Source: Moorena sp. SIO3I8 (GTDB lineage: Bacteria; Cyanobacteriota; Cyanobacteriia; Cyanobacteriales; Coleofasciculaceae). Taken from it: DNA of 38,599 bases. This document shows positions 9,692 to 21,600 of the stretch, one piece after another. The stretch is taken from positions 1 to 38,599 of the forward strand of contig NZ_JAAHHW010000065.1 of NCBI RefSeq assembly GCF_010692325.1. The letters run 5' to 3'. The translations under genes and the position numbers were made by a program. Position 1 is the stretch's first letter. Each line of letters starts with the position of its first letter. The notes below the pieces were generated by a model. It did not search any database, was not told where the DNA came from, and saw only the letters and a program-made list of their open reading frames with translations.

Positions 9692-10639
9692 TCAACTCTC
9701 CTTGGCCAAACAAGGTTTAATTGTTGCTACCACCGACTGAGCTAGAGCACTGAGTTCGTACCCCCCCTCTAAACCAAAAACAATCCGACGAGTTAGTTGC
9801 AGACAATACTTGGTAAATAGCCCATAATCATCTGGCTGCAAGGCAATATTTGCCAAGGGATCGGCGGCATTAGCATCATAACCAGCACTGACAATCAATA
9901 AATCTGGCTGAAATTTGGTTAAAAAGGGCATCACTTTCTGTTCAAACATCGGCTGGTAATCTGCTAACGTGCTGCCTGGTGCCATGGGAAGATTAAGGAC
10001 ATTATTGTGAAACCCCTGTTCACTGGCTTGGCCTGTACCAGGATAGCAAGGGGATTGATGAAGGGAGATGTAGGCAATGCGAGCATCTCGTTCCACAACA
10101 TCTTGAGTACCATTGCCGTGATGGACATCCCAGTCTAGGATGGCAACTCGTTCGACTCCCGATTGCTCTAAGGCATAGTAAGCTGCGATCGCAGCATTGG
10201 AAAATAAGCAAAACCCCATCCCTCTCTGACGTTCAGCATGATGACCAGGGGGACGGGCTAGAACAAAGGCTGAATTATTGGTAGTGAGGACTTGATCTAC
10301 CGCATCTAGCCAAGCACTAACGGCGAGTAGGGCAACATCGTAACTGCGGGGGGATATCCCTGTGTCCGCATCTAACCTGCCACCATTACTCCTAGCGATT
10401 TCTTAAACTGTCTCAATGTAGCGCTGGCTATGAATTTGTTGTACTAGAGGCATCACTCGACGAGTTTCTACCGCTGTCGGTAACTGCCACTTAATTTGGT
10501 CAGCCCAAGGTGCAGCTTTGATAGCATCAACAATCGCAGTTAAACGTTCTGGTCGTTCTGGGTGAAACCGACCGTTATCGTGTTCAAGAAACTCATCGGA
10601 GTAAATGACAGGAAACATATTATAGCACGATTCAGCCAA
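9692..10639 (-). pseudogene. Histone deacetylase/acetoin utilization family protein, interrupted by one in-frame TAA
   Basis: The full frame of about 315 residues runs from ATG 10639 to the stop at 9692, broken only by TAA at 10403-10405 (after residue 78, QRYIETV; reading continues EIARSNGG). No frameshift is present. The family motifs are intact: PPGHHAE (active-site His pair) and DWDVHHGNGT (zinc ligands), both downstream of the stop, followed by GFxNNVLNLP-type and FGLEGGY-type segments. In the family this fold removes acetyl groups from small molecules or lysines. A single base change, for example AAA to TAA, explains the break. An internal start (ATG 10219) would lack the PPGHH motif, so a functional downstream fragment is unlikely. 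Sequencing error or stop readthrough remains possible. Confidence 0.8.
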
Positions 10640-15830: not shown

Positions 15831-17708
15831 ATGACCAATACCGCTACTTTCCCTGACCTAGAAAATCATTGGGCGAGAGATTGTATCAACCAACTGCGGG
15901 AGCGTAAGTTGGTCAGTGGTTACCCGGATGGTAAATTTCGTCCTAATTTTAGAATTACCCGCGCTGAGTTTGCTGTCTTAATGCTGAATGCCTTTCCCTC
16001 AGCACCGATTCAGCGGGGTGGTATTCGTTTTAAGGACGTACCTAGTAATCATTGGGCCAAAAATGTGATTCAAGATGCCTACAAGCGAAGATTTTTTTCG
16101 GGCTATCCTGGCAGACGATTTAAACCGAATGAGTCCATTTCTCGAGTGCAAGCGATCGCCGTTTTAGCAGGAGCCAAGAATTACCCTATCCCGTCAGAAC
16201 CCGATGGAACTCTCAGACGGTATTTTACTGATGCTACCCAGATTCCCCAGTATGCTAAAAATGCGATCGCATCCGCAGCAATTAATACTATTGTGGTTAA
16301 CTATCCCAATATCAAACAGGTCAAACCAAATCAGAGTGCTACCCGTGGTGAAGTAGCGGCTTTGCTGTGTCGGGCGTTAAACATCTATGCTGTTCCACCT
16401 CAGTATATTGCTGGAGTGGAAGTCTCTTCTGATGATGTTCGTAGTTTACCAGGGCAATTGGATCAGGTGCCTGTATTTAATAGCAATAGTCCAGAACTAG
16501 TCAGAAGTGAGGGGATTTTGCTGTCTACGTTTTCACCGGAAGGGAAACAAGTTCCTTCAGCCCACCTTGATTATGGCTTTAATGGACGGTTTGATATCTT
16601 TACCCACCATATTGCTAGAGCAGAGACTCAGGCGGAAACCCATCCCCTTTATCAAGGATTGATAGTTTATAATCCCAATGAAACACCTGTTACAGTGGAG
16701 GTCTTGCAAGGGGCGAGTTATCTGTCTACCCCAGATGCACCGTTTATCTCGTTGCCGGATATGGTGGATAATCCCAATGGTACAGTCTATGCTGGTCCTG
16801 GCAGTCGGACAATGAATGATGTACTCAGGGGAATTCTCCAAGAACTATTTCCCGCCAAACTGGTGCTGAAGGCAAAACAAAGCCAAATGTTAATGAATCA
16901 GCCAATTCCAGTTAAACGATCACCAGCTTCTAATGGTCGTTCTACCATGATGCGGTTACGGAGTGATGGGATGGTCTATGTGGCTAACTTAGCCATGAAA
17001 GCCCCTCGTGATGGCAATGGAATCTATCGGGAACCTACGGTAGCAGAATGGCAAGACTTACTGGATACGGGCGGCTTAGCTCAACCCCGTGGACCAATAC
17101 CCACTCCTCTCGAACCACCTCAAGAACCGACGGTGTTTGGTCGGGTGGCTGGTGTTTCCCAAGGTTCTCAATGGCAAGTGCTGATTCAAGATAATCCAAA
17201 TGTTAACTATTTGAGTATTCCTCAGCTAGGGCAGGCATTTTCTTATGTGGTGGGGACTCTACATCTGATTACTCTGAGTACAGGGCAAATTCAAAGTGCA
17301 CCGATGTTAAGGCGCTATGCCGATACGGCCTACTTTGCCCACAGTAATTATGGGGTAGAATACAATATAACTTTACCATTGAAGAATACTACTAATCAAC
17401 CCCAAACGCTGACGGTATCGCTGCAAACGCCATTGAAGGATGAGGGGGGTACTGATCGACTGCTGTTTTTGAACCCACGGGTTGAAAACGTGTTCTTTCG
17501 GGGTACACTCAGAATAAATTATGATGATGATGATCGAAAGGCTCAGACGCGCTATGTGCATTTAGTGCAGCGACGAGGACAGCCAGGGCATCCATTGGTG
17601 ACGTTGAATTTAGCCCCTGAAGAAGTTAGGCAGCTACAGGTGGATTTTCTCTATCCCCCGGATTCGACACCACCCCAGGTGCTTACAGTTCGGACTTTGG
17701 AGGGTTAG
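15831..17708 (+). CDS. SLH-domain protein with C-terminal DUF3370-like domain
   Basis: Residues about 8-190 hold three S-layer homology motifs: FPDLENHWARDCINQL with SGYPDGKFRPN, FKDVPSNHWAKNVIQDA with FSGYPGRRFKPN, and a third ending VKPNQSATRGEVAALLCRA. The remaining 430 residues (LDYGFNGRFDIFTHHIARAE onward) resemble the cyanobacterial DUF3370 family, to my recollection. SLH domains usually bind cell-wall polymer or peptidoglycan. Yet the protein begins directly with an SLH motif, an in-frame TAA lies just upstream of the ATG, and no signal peptide is visible. Export is therefore unclear. The family call for the C-terminal half is moderate; the SLH part is firm. Confidence 0.82.
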   Translation: MTNTATFPDLENHWARDCINQLRERKLVSGYPDGKFRPNFRITRAEFAVLMLNAFPSAPIQRGGIRFKDVPSNHWAKNVIQDAYKRRFFSGYPGRRFKPNESISRVQAIAVLAGAKNYPIPSEPDGTLRRYFTDATQIPQYAKNAIASAAINTIVVNYPNIKQVKPNQSATRGEVAALLCRALNIYAVPPQYIAGVEVSSDDVRSLPGQLDQVPVFNSNSPELVRSEGILLSTFSPEGKQVPSAHLDYGFNGRFDIFTHHIARAETQAETHPLYQGLIVYNPNETPVTVEVLQGASYLSTPDAPFISLPDMVDNPNGTVYAGPGSRTMNDVLRGILQELFPAKLVLKAKQSQMLMNQPIPVKRSPASNGRSTMMRLRSDGMVYVANLAMKAPRDGNGIYREPTVAEWQDLLDTGGLAQPRGPIPTPLEPPQEPTVFGRVAGVSQGSQWQVLIQDNPNVNYLSIPQLGQAFSYVVGTLHLITLSTGQIQSAPMLRRYADTAYFAHSNYGVEYNITLPLKNTTNQPQTLTVSLQTPLKDEGGTDRLLFLNPRVENVFFRGTLRINYDDDDRKAQTRYVHLVQRRGQPGHPLVTLNLAPEEVRQLQVDFLYPPDSTPPQVLTVRTLEG

Positions 17709-18092
17709 GAGAGTTGGAAATCGGCTCACAAATACAAGGTCGCAATTGTGCGATCGCACAATCAAATATTAATCTCGATTCTAGTAGTATCACGGATTTA
17801 GCCTGAATCTGCTATTGTGTAACGTTAGCAGCATACTAAACTTTATCAAAAATAGCTGATGCCAGCAAAAGCGATCAGTATTAACTATTTAGGAGTTTAG
17901 TTATTGCTGACGAAGTTTTGCCTAAGATCATCAAACCAGCAGAAATGCTTACTCTAGATGATAGAGATGATCTAGTTACGGCAGCTACTGCCTAGGGATA
18001 TACCTAGAATTGCTGTCGGCACCAGAACAACTATATCACACTCAGGTTGCTTGATAACTTTTGCTAGATAACTATTGATATCTTGACCACTT
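17709..18092. other. Intergenic region with an extended HIP1 palindrome and a possible gene scrap
   Basis: Bases 17745-17762 are a perfect 18-base palindrome, attgtgcgatcgcacaat, centred on a HIP1 octamer. Bases 17891-17995 hold an open stretch (ADEVLPKIIKPAEMLTLDD, then RDDLVTAATA and stop) with aggag but no ATG/GTG/TTG at a proper distance. It may be the end of a decayed gene; no family is recognised. Confidence 0.4.
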
Positions 18093-19787
18093 ATGCCTTC
18101 TCAAACCTTTATCGTGCGTGCTCACACTCGTACGATCCATACCCGTCCAGTTACCTTTTTTTGCCCCAAATGCAATCATATGACTACTCGTGAGTGCTAT
18201 CCTGGTAAGCCTCCTAAATACTGTCTCGAATGTAGTCCGAGACGAAAACGTCAGCAAGATGAGCTGTATATACCCGAAAAGGGGATGTTCAAGCCAACAC
18301 ACAACTTGGTGAATCTTACCAGTGGGCAGAAGACACCAGTATGTCTGGAGAAGTCCCCCCAAGCTGGGTGGCTTTTCGTGAGGACAGCCCTAGATTGGTT
18401 TAGCGGGGAAAGCATCATCAAGTATCACACAACTAAAGGGGTTTACAGCCAGGAGGTGCCGTTGGCAGATTATATCGTCGAAGCTCTACCAGCTGGCGAT
18501 ATCACCACAGCATTTCCATCAGCTACCTCTGCTAAAAAGAAGATTACTCCTGCTAAATCTTCATCAGAGCTACTTTTAGTAGAACCCTACAGTGTGAAGA
18601 AGATGTGCGATCGCTTCCGGTGCGGGGACAGGTTACTCAAGAGGATGCGCACTGACCCAAACTTCAGCCAGTGGAGTCGCTCTCGGGATCCCGAGGGCAT
18701 CACTTGGGAGTATCGGCAAGGAAAATATTTTCCTTTAGTTGATCAGGTTAATCAGGAATCATCAGCCACCTCTGAACCTGAAATAGAGGAGACTACCCCC
18801 ACGACTAATGGGTCATCCCAGGGGATTTCAGTAGAACCCTACAGTGTGAAGAAGATGTGCGATCGCTTCCGTTGCGGGGACAGGTTACTCAAGAGGATGC
18901 GCACTGAGCCAAACTTCAGCCAGTGGAGTCGCTCTCGGGATCCCGAGGGCATCACTTGGGAGTATCGGCAAGGAAAATATTTTCCTTTAGTTGATCAGGT
19001 TAATCAGGTTGATCAAGAATCATCAAACACCTTTGAACCTGAAATAGAGGAGACTACCCCCACGACTAATGGGTCATCCCAGGGTTTTTCAGTAGAACCC
19101 TACAGTGTCAAACAGATGTGCGATCGCTTCCGTTGCGGGGACAGGTTACTCAAGAGGATGCGCACTGAGCCAAACTTCAGCCAGTGGAGTCGCTCTCGGG
19201 ATCCCGAGGGCATCACTTGGGAGTATCGGCAAGGAAAATATTTTCCTTTAGTTGATCAGGTTAATCAGGTTCATCAAGAATCATCAGAAACCTTTGAACC
19301 TGACATACAGGAGACTACTGCCACCACTAATGGGTCATCCCAGGGTATTTCAGTAGAACCCTACAGTGTCAAACAGATGTGCGATCGCTTCCGTTGTGGG
19401 GACAGGTTACTCAAGAGGATGCGCACTGAACCAAACTTTAGCCAGTGGAGTCGCTCTCGGGATCCAGAGGGCATCTCTTGGGAGTATCGGCAAGGAAAAT
19501 ACTTTCCTTTAGTTGATCAGCTTAATCAGGTTAATCAAGAATCATCAGACACCTTTGAACCTGAAATAGAGGATACTACTCCCACCACTAATGGGTCATC
19601 CCAGGGGATTTCACTAGAACCCTACAGTGTCAAAAAGCTCTGCGATCGCTTCCGTTGTGGGGACAGGTTACTCAAGAGGATGCGCACTGACCCAAACTTC
19701 AGCCAGTGGAGTCGCTCTCGGGATCCCGAGGGCATCACTTGGGAGTATCGGCAAGGAAAATACTTTCCTTTACTTAATCACCAATAA
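18093..19787 (+). CDS. Protein with zinc-ribbon-like N-terminus and five tandem HTH-like modules
   Basis: Not recognised as a named family; 564 residues. Residues 23-53 contain two CxxC pairs (CPKC ... CLEC) with a third Cys between, suggesting a zinc ribbon. Residues about 60-160 are a divergent domain (WFSGESIIKYHTTKGVYSQE). From residue 163 come five near-identical modules starting at residues 163, 247, 334, 421 and 508. Each core is about 53 residues: EPYSVKKMCDRFRCGDRLLK, then RMRTDPNFSQWSRSRDPEG, then ITWEYRQGKYFP. The first part looks like a helix-turn-helix of MerR/excisionase type and the last like a beta wing. Linkers are acidic and Ser/Thr-rich (EPEIEETTPTTNGSSQG). A multi-site DNA-binding protein is an inference. 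The start is the first ATG of the frame, with no clear ribosome site. Confidence 0.75.
   Translation: MPSQTFIVRAHTRTIHTRPVTFFCPKCNHMTTRECYPGKPPKYCLECSPRRKRQQDELYIPEKGMFKPTHNLVNLTSGQKTPVCLEKSPQAGWLFVRTALDWFSGESIIKYHTTKGVYSQEVPLADYIVEALPAGDITTAFPSATSAKKKITPAKSSSELLLVEPYSVKKMCDRFRCGDRLLKRMRTDPNFSQWSRSRDPEGITWEYRQGKYFPLVDQVNQESSATSEPEIEETTPTTNGSSQGISVEPYSVKKMCDRFRCGDRLLKRMRTEPNFSQWSRSRDPEGITWEYRQGKYFPLVDQVNQVDQESSNTFEPEIEETTPTTNGSSQGFSVEPYSVKQMCDRFRCGDRLLKRMRTEPNFSQWSRSRDPEGITWEYRQGKYFPLVDQVNQVHQESSETFEPDIQETTATTNGSSQGISVEPYSVKQMCDRFRCGDRLLKRMRTEPNFSQWSRSRDPEGISWEYRQGKYFPLVDQLNQVNQESSDTFEPEIEDTTPTTNGSSQGISLEPYSVKKLCDRFRCGDRLLKRMRTDPNFSQWSRSRDPEGITWEYRQGKYFPLLNHQ
18579..19784 (+). repeat. Five tandem coding repeats of 252-261 bp
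   Basis: Unit starts are 18579, 18831, 19092, 19353 and 19614, so spacings are 252, 261, 261 and 261 bases, all multiples of three; the final unit is cut after its core. Each unit carries the same HIP1 octamer (gcgatcgc) in the codons for CDRF. Differences between units are few and mostly synonymous or in the linkers. This indicates recent expansion or gene-conversion homogenisation. Confidence 0.95.
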
Positions 19788-19809: not shown

Positions 19810-19905
19810 AGCAGATGCGTTCGCGCCCCGCGTGACCTACGGTCAATCGCGTAGCGTCGGCTGTGGCCGTAGGCCACGCTGCGCGAACGCCGAATCGCAT
19901 CTGCT
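19810..19905. repeat. Large GC-rich compound palindrome
   Basis: Outer arms agcagatgcg (19810-19819) and cgcatctgct (19896-19905) are perfectly complementary. Inside are ttcgcg/cgcgaa, tgacc-tac-ggtca (19833-19845) and gtggcc-gta-ggccac (19863-19877). It can fold as a cruciform with two sub-hairpins. It is the most complete copy of the dispersed palindrome family of this window. Confidence 0.8.

Positions 19906-20051: not shown

Positions 20052-21600
<1,549 letters not shown>

Follow-up and report, generated by a model that had tools for sequence, protein, structure and literature searches.

The window analysed here, i.e. the whole stretch of 38,599 nucleotides from Moorena sp. SIO3I8 (host genome 7.99 Mb), contains a gene that starts with ATG, has no internal stop codons and encodes a cysteine-containing head followed by five near-identical modules on acidic linkers (table 1). 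The gene stands alone between a gene at 15831-17708 (+), which we take to encode an SLH-domain-like protein, and one at 20052-21074 (-), presumably gap (GAPDH). An orthologue with the same neighbours is present in Moorena sp. SIO3H5, M. bouillonii PNG and Moorena sp. SS36440bin_2, and the other Moorena loci examined have orthologues of the same build at the same chromosomal position, an argument against an artefact of assembly. This constancy of the neighbours within Moorena reads as plain synteny, and no operon partner was found, the genes adjoining the one-module and two-module relatives described below not being shared. A promoter consensus scan of the upstream intergenic region detected no promoter-like site on the strand of the gene and a single one on the opposite strand, compared with 2.6 in shuffled sequences.

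Table 1. Features of the array gene and its upstream region (positions in the window).
Feature	Residues or length	Coordinates	Strand	Remarks
Upstream intergenic region		17709..18092	+	strongly conserved in 5 aligned Moorena loci
Whole gene	564 aa	18093..19787	+	ORF reading
Cys4 ribbon-like segment	1-60	18093..18272	+	C24, C27, C44, C47
Second domain	61-135	18273..18497	+	no Pfam match above cut-off
Hinge	136-163	18498..18581	+	length variable among Moorena
Module 1	164-215	18582..18737	+
Linker 1	32 aa	18738..18833	+	net charge -6
Module 2	248-299	18834..18989	+
Linker 2	35 aa	18990..19094	+	net charge -7
Module 3	335-386	19095..19250	+
Linker 3	35 aa	19251..19355	+	net charge -6
Module 4	422-473	19356..19511	+
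Linker 4	35 aa	19512..19616	+	net charge -7
Module 5	509-560	19617..19772	+	close to protein end

The first-pass annotation of this DNA had described five near-identical modules of about 53 residues, joined by acidic Ser/Thr-rich linkers in one polypeptide. This picture is borne out by the intact reading frame, by Tandem Repeats Finder, which reports 4.7 copies of a 261-bp period at 18574-19780 (94% matches, score 2064, threshold 50), and by charge counts, with the size of the modules corrected to 52 residues each. In pairwise comparison the modules of the gene are 93.5-98.7% identical at the DNA level (51 codons); they carry a net charge of +4 or +5, whereas the linkers, with a Ser/Thr content of 29-34%, are at -6 or -7.

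Every module also contains one HIP1 octamer (GCGATCGC) in the same place (18607, 18859, 19120, 19381 and 19642). There is no evidence for HIP1 being bound as the DNA target of the array, since the octamer encodes part of a Cys-Asp-Arg sequence and is frequent across the whole window, where it occurs 32 times compared with 0.33 expected from base composition. Other repeats were also seen in the window: directly 3' of the gene lies a short dispersed repeat (19869-19890), the 21-base core of which is found in seven copies in the genome and in none in a reversed control, and a 294-bp unit is present in two copies with 94% identity at 533-1119. A gene at 9692-10639 (-), presumably deacetylase-like, appears as two ORFs in the window (9692-10219 and 10403-10639) and is a single 315-aa ORF in another Moorena genome (G001, L065).

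The N-terminal head

The cysteines of the N-terminal segment form a CxxC...CxxC arrangement (Cys24/27 and Cys44/47), and all four are invariant in the six rows of an alignment of ribbon-headed relatives. With two conserved CxxC knuckles, the zinc-ribbon-like N-terminus proposed earlier stands as an assignment from sequence. Elsewhere, open frames of some 74-104 aa consist of the Cys4 segment on its own, and most of them have both knuckles; the stand-alone heads of 74-77 aa (in Moorena and in genomes G004/G015) have an altered second knuckle. For the second domain, structure prediction yielded only low-confidence beta strands. Ribbon and second domain are found together without the module in two genomes (G017, with L071 and L072, and G042, with L075).

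A profile of the head matched 47 of the 386 genomes in the phylum sample at E <= 1e-5, i.e. two Moorena, 41 members of family f33 and four genomes from other families. The full head is present in 8/20 genomes of Moorena's own family, corresponding to 4/12 genera with Moorena included, as well as in G045, a member of another family. A one-module relative (L009) matched 34 plasmid records, 20 of them from Nostoc, and among the matches listed all cover the ribbon except one over the second domain. The exception is an AIPR family protein from a plasmid of Crinalium (L127:2807-4216), the C-terminal end of which resembles the second domain (36.8% identity over 68 residues). One further protein (L076:1404-2195, minus strand) joins the Cys4 head to an extended region rich in Ser, Thr and Pro and to another kind of C-terminal part, for which Pfam gave no convincing match.

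Cysteines at both positions 13 and 18, which we take to be classical HTH positions 5 and 10, are present in 7/7 ribbon-headed modules in the 27-row alignment of the module family (A1, numbered as in its row 1) and in none of the other 20, one of which (L014) has only the second cysteine.

Fold and sequence family of the module

That the module is an HTH with a wing, as the first reading of the sequence had suggested, is supported, though not proven, by structure prediction and by matches of its relatives. AlphaFold2 was run on an alignment of 15 Moorena modules with almost no diversity, and only two of the five resulting models are confident, with pLDDT values of 82, 76, 54, 51 and 50. The best model (pLDDT 82.3) consists of three helices (residues 5-12, 16-24 and 28-35) and two strands (41-45 and 48-52), i.e. 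the predicted fold is a tri-helical core with an HTH followed by a beta-hairpin wing. This H-H-H-E-E topology has the element order of the earlier claim, at a confidence that three of the five models, at 50-54, do not share. A longer model covering ribbon, second domain and module 1 was unusable (pLDDT 40.9), and in this weak model the order of elements in the module is unchanged.

Comparing the module model with the PDB by Foldseek gave 90 matches at E <= 10 and none at E <= 0.001. Among the 50 matches listed of these 90, query TM-scores were 0.26-0.45, and 47 are, by our own assignment, winged-helix/HTH-containing proteins (a few of them doubtful, e.g. 6a51 and 5fmf), the other three (TARG1) lacking such a domain; this tally refers to whole proteins, as aligned ranges were not printed. 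By sequence, no convincing solved relative of the module was found (best E 0.073).

In Pfam a single module of the window has no match, and its assignment as an HTH is therefore based on homology and the model. Members of the module family never reached a curated Pfam or NCBIfam cut-off over the module, the NCBIfam scan having used whole proteins rather than single modules. At E <= 1, however, six of ten family members (out of 27) matched Pfam families named or known as HTH, or seven when Phage_NinH, which we take to be an HTH family, is counted, compared with 0/10 in a shuffle control of ten members, which gave one other match (Cas_Csy1). Two of the HTH-matching members each had one additional, non-HTH match (WKF and Phytase-like). 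The best Pfam match of L009 (E 0.027) and of L003 (E 0.0084) is HTH_17 (PF12728), presumably a MerR/excisionase-like winged HTH, with the best score (16.8 bits, L003) below the gathering cut-off of 27. A helix-turn-helix followed by a hairpin is common to HTH_17 and the module, but the module has an extra helix with a conserved W and a DP motif between recognition helix and hairpin.

Five residues, i.e. R15, W35, D40, P41 and W46, are invariant in 27/27 rows of A1, and all five modules of the window match the family profile. In the modules of a group of membrane proteins, a textbook HTH sequence (e.g. QAELAKRLNVHSSTVGKRK in L002) precedes this W, DP, W pattern. Basic residues are conserved at position 25 (K/R, 24/27), position 27 (K/R, 27/27) and position 39 (26/27), counts that refer to A1 and thus leave out a group of plasmid proteins, in which the second helix is less basic and ends in mixed charge, e.g. 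ERE (A5, six rows). Among the 15 aligned Moorena modules, 9/52 columns vary, and none of these lies in helix residues 16-24 (A6 numbering), which are invariant in 15/15.

Several other identities and origins were considered and dropped. A phage or mobile-element origin found no backing, since neither the one-module protein L009 nor the plasmid protein L043 matched any of 50,697 phage records at E <= 0.1. Five scans of viral contigs gave no confirmed relative; one of these scans is a weak negative, because hits were confirmed with the window module (58 aa), whose identity to the other rows is only 30-37%. Low-E matches of the whole protein to Pfam, NCBIfam and PHROG families (e.g. UBact, queuosine salvage and Pol III epsilon) have scattered boundaries and are probably inflated by summing over five repeats; a single module has no such match in Pfam, and its PHROG matches are at E 0.095 and 0.19. 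Glyoxalase scored 24.7 bits over the whole protein, above the cut-off of 20.6, but no single stretch passes the limit.

Relatives, copy number and history

The module turns out to be a widespread C-terminal domain for which neither Pfam nor NCBIfam has a model. At E <= 1e-6 its profile matched 89 of the 292 cyanobacterial genomes in the phylum sample, a lower bound with usually only 21 candidates per genome scored; 'cyanobacterial' here means that it was found there and does not imply absence from other phyla. In a search of 57 genomes including the host, it was also found elsewhere in the host genome and in others. Twenty regions picked by hand placed it on open frames of plasmid type (about 100-270 aa) and in other proteins. 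Small frames of 68 and 86 aa (L003 and L031) carry it as well. It is located behind a response-regulator receiver in L058 and within a GIY-YIG protein in L052. In a DprA protein (L056:1024-2190, TIGR00732 above cut-off) it forms the C-terminus, for which Pfam offered no other domain at E <= 0.01, and a diverged module is the C-terminal tail of a heavy-metal P-type ATPase (L055:117-2654).

Closest to the array protein are four one-module relatives (L008-L011; 60-63% identity, 202-207 aa from the first start codon), which have the same ribbon, second domain and module and no long linker array. These come from three other genera of Moorena's family (genomes G004, G005, G012 and G016). A two-module protein of G045 (L012, 286 aa) likewise has the same ribbon, second domain and module (51% identity). 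Membrane proteins such as L002, L016, L023, L032 and others share the C-terminal module, which in them has a classical HTH sequence, but differ in having a membrane anchor, a central HTH-like region, a single module and no ribbon. The open frames that have the module near the C-terminus and two hydrophobic stretches (judged by eye) at the N-terminus are about 230-463 aa long, and the second HTH-like region of the two-helix membrane proteins matches HTH_11 in six of nine members (best E 7.8e-5; the match of the member shown lies below cut-off).

The plasmid proteins (L042-L049 and L051; further loci L077-L080 and L130-L137) share the C-terminal module in single copy behind a coiled coil (judged by eye) and a start that is presumably ribbon-helix-helix-like, and lie near tyrosine recombinases. 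Relatives of one of them (L043) were found on 95 plasmid records (E <= 1e-3), and in 51 of these the match spans at least 80% of the query. On 11 of the 12 plasmids inspected, all chosen by hand, a tyrosine recombinase or integrase is encoded within 2.5 kb of the module gene. Proteins of this type may belong to a system for recombining or maintaining plasmids.

The absence of any known family with this build, as noted by the first-pass annotation, is thus upheld for the array and has to be given up for the module, which is widespread and exists in a one-module version in three other genera. Counting modules in homologues gave one, two, four and five copies: five in the window and in SIO3H5, four in G001 and in M. 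bouillonii, and at least two in SS36440bin_2, where a run of N interrupts the array. The four Moorena arrays free of such an interruption all have at least four modules. Amplification of a single unit is supported.

Its timing is a different matter. Synonymous divergence among modules of one genome is 0.03-0.33 (mean 0.16), compared with 0.036-0.203 (mean about 0.11, ten values) between Moorena genomes over codons 1-130. Since divergence within a genome overlaps with and on average exceeds that between genomes, the 'recent amplification' originally put forward cannot be maintained as stated; near identity of modules is not equivalent to very recent origin here, and the amplification appears to predate the Moorena species sampled. 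In a tree of the modules, with uneven and in several cases low branch supports, the first modules of Moorena group together with module 2 of the window and of G001 close by, module 5 of the window groups with module 5 of SIO3H5 and module 4 with that of G001, and modules 3 and 4 of M. bouillonii group with each other. Taking tree and divergence together, the array has the look of a trait of the whole genus, in which units were later gained and lost and to some extent homogenized. The modules are under purifying selection and the linkers less constrained, with mean dN/dS values of 0.12 (32 within-genome pairs) and 0.54 (13 equal-length pairs), respectively, which are descriptive only because pairs are non-independent and modules short.

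Possible functions of the array

On balance, we lean slightly towards the array protein being a multivalent DNA-binding protein that reads one site several times, with DNA binding, the shared site, multivalency, the role of the head and the direction of evolution being what we infer from the comparisons above. The ancestor would have been a protein of about 200 aa with a zinc ribbon, a small second domain and one C-terminal winged-HTH-like module, and the last module with its linker would have been duplicated in the Moorena lineage to give four or five beads. Having the same putative recognition helix, these beads would read the same short site; identical helices point to one site used repeatedly rather than to a composite code. 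The flexible acidic linkers could hold one molecule on several clustered copies of the site with high avidity or, alternatively, could bridge separate copies. With 32-35 residues, a stretched linker would reach up to about 110-120 Angstrom (estimated at about 3.4 Angstrom per residue), which would be enough for adjacent or separated sites. Ribbon and second domain may act as an effector, an anchor or a metal-dependent part. The array may thus read or bridge DNA, as was proposed at the outset; a DNA target array for the modules was not found.

Multivalent DNA binding is in line with the predicted HTH topology and the HTH matches in relatives that disappear upon shuffling, with the conserved basic positions in A1, the invariant helix and the low module dN/dS, and with a company that is largely DNA-related, i.e. 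DprA, a response regulator, a GIY-YIG protein and plasmid recombinases, as well as the second HTH-like region in the two-helix membrane proteins. It fits less well with a window module that has no Pfam match and a family below every Pfam and NCBIfam cut-off, with the lack of a significant Foldseek match and of confidence in three of the five AlphaFold2 models, with the mixed charge of the second helix in the plasmid group, and with a locus for which neither operon partner nor target array was found. P-type ATPase and membrane-protein carriers are also odd company for a domain that only binds DNA. These carriers count in favour of a rival reading, in which the module would be an HTH-derived protein-interaction module and the five beads a multivalent scaffold for a partner protein, without DNA contact. 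The top Foldseek match, ScpB, whose winged helices we take to be protein-interaction domains, and the less basic second helix of some carriers (e.g. L003 and the plasmid group) point the same way, but we find such a scaffold rather doubtful in view of the K/R that closes the putative recognition helix in all 27 rows of A1 (plasmid group excluded) and of the DNA-related company just mentioned.

The alternation of positive modules and negative linkers, the low complexity of the latter and the near identity of the beads could also suit a protein that binds RNA, or DNA non-specifically, and acts as a chromatin-like or ribonucleoprotein organizer, with charge alternation driving condensation. This seems quite improbable, as a helix that is identical in every bead compared suggests specificity and acidic linkers would be expected to weaken non-specific binding. 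Finally, the number of repeats might mostly be a by-product of unequal recombination, with one or two beads doing the work and the rest being tolerated: close relatives do differ in copy number (5, 4, 4, 5 and at least 2, the last with an N-gap), and three other genera of the family make do with one bead, G045 with two. Yet the protein has changed little while synonymous sites diverged (dN/dS 0.12, helix 16-24 invariant in 15/15 modules) and no uninterrupted Moorena array (n=4) has fewer than four beads, which makes this explanation very improbable.

A bolder version of multivalent DNA binding, which we put forward as unlikely, is a DNA-clustering protein of tuneable avidity that is switched by metal or redox state, its five heads gathering dispersed copies of one site and its bead number being tuned by recombination. 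Confinement of the Cys pair at positions 13 and 18 to the ribbon clade in A1 means that each head could switch by oxidation or metal; speculatively, this clade-specific pair could be redox- or metal-sensitive, and the Cys4 ribbon could be a further metal site beside it.

HTH proteins and duplications of HTH domains are already familiar, and in bacteria HTH proteins usually make several DNA contacts by way of oligomerization. Several small DNA-binding units per chain are known from eukaryotic multi-finger and multi-Myb proteins, for which we claim no sequence kinship; in contrast to these, the beads of the array are near-identical and widely spaced, such that no composite code is expected. What is new, as far as we can tell, is the arrangement, in one chain, of a ribbon followed by four or five near-identical HTH-type beads that are joined by charged linkers, and in a small exact-term literature search no bacterial protein of this build was described in titles and abstract openings. 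If the array protein binds DNA, valency would be written into one chain by duplication within a gene, and with natural versions of one, two, four and five beads available for comparison, the relation of bead number to avidity, site clustering or bridging becomes directly testable. Beyond Moorena, the array draws attention to a widespread module that has no Pfam or NCBIfam model and recurs in DprA, plasmid and membrane proteins of cyanobacteria.
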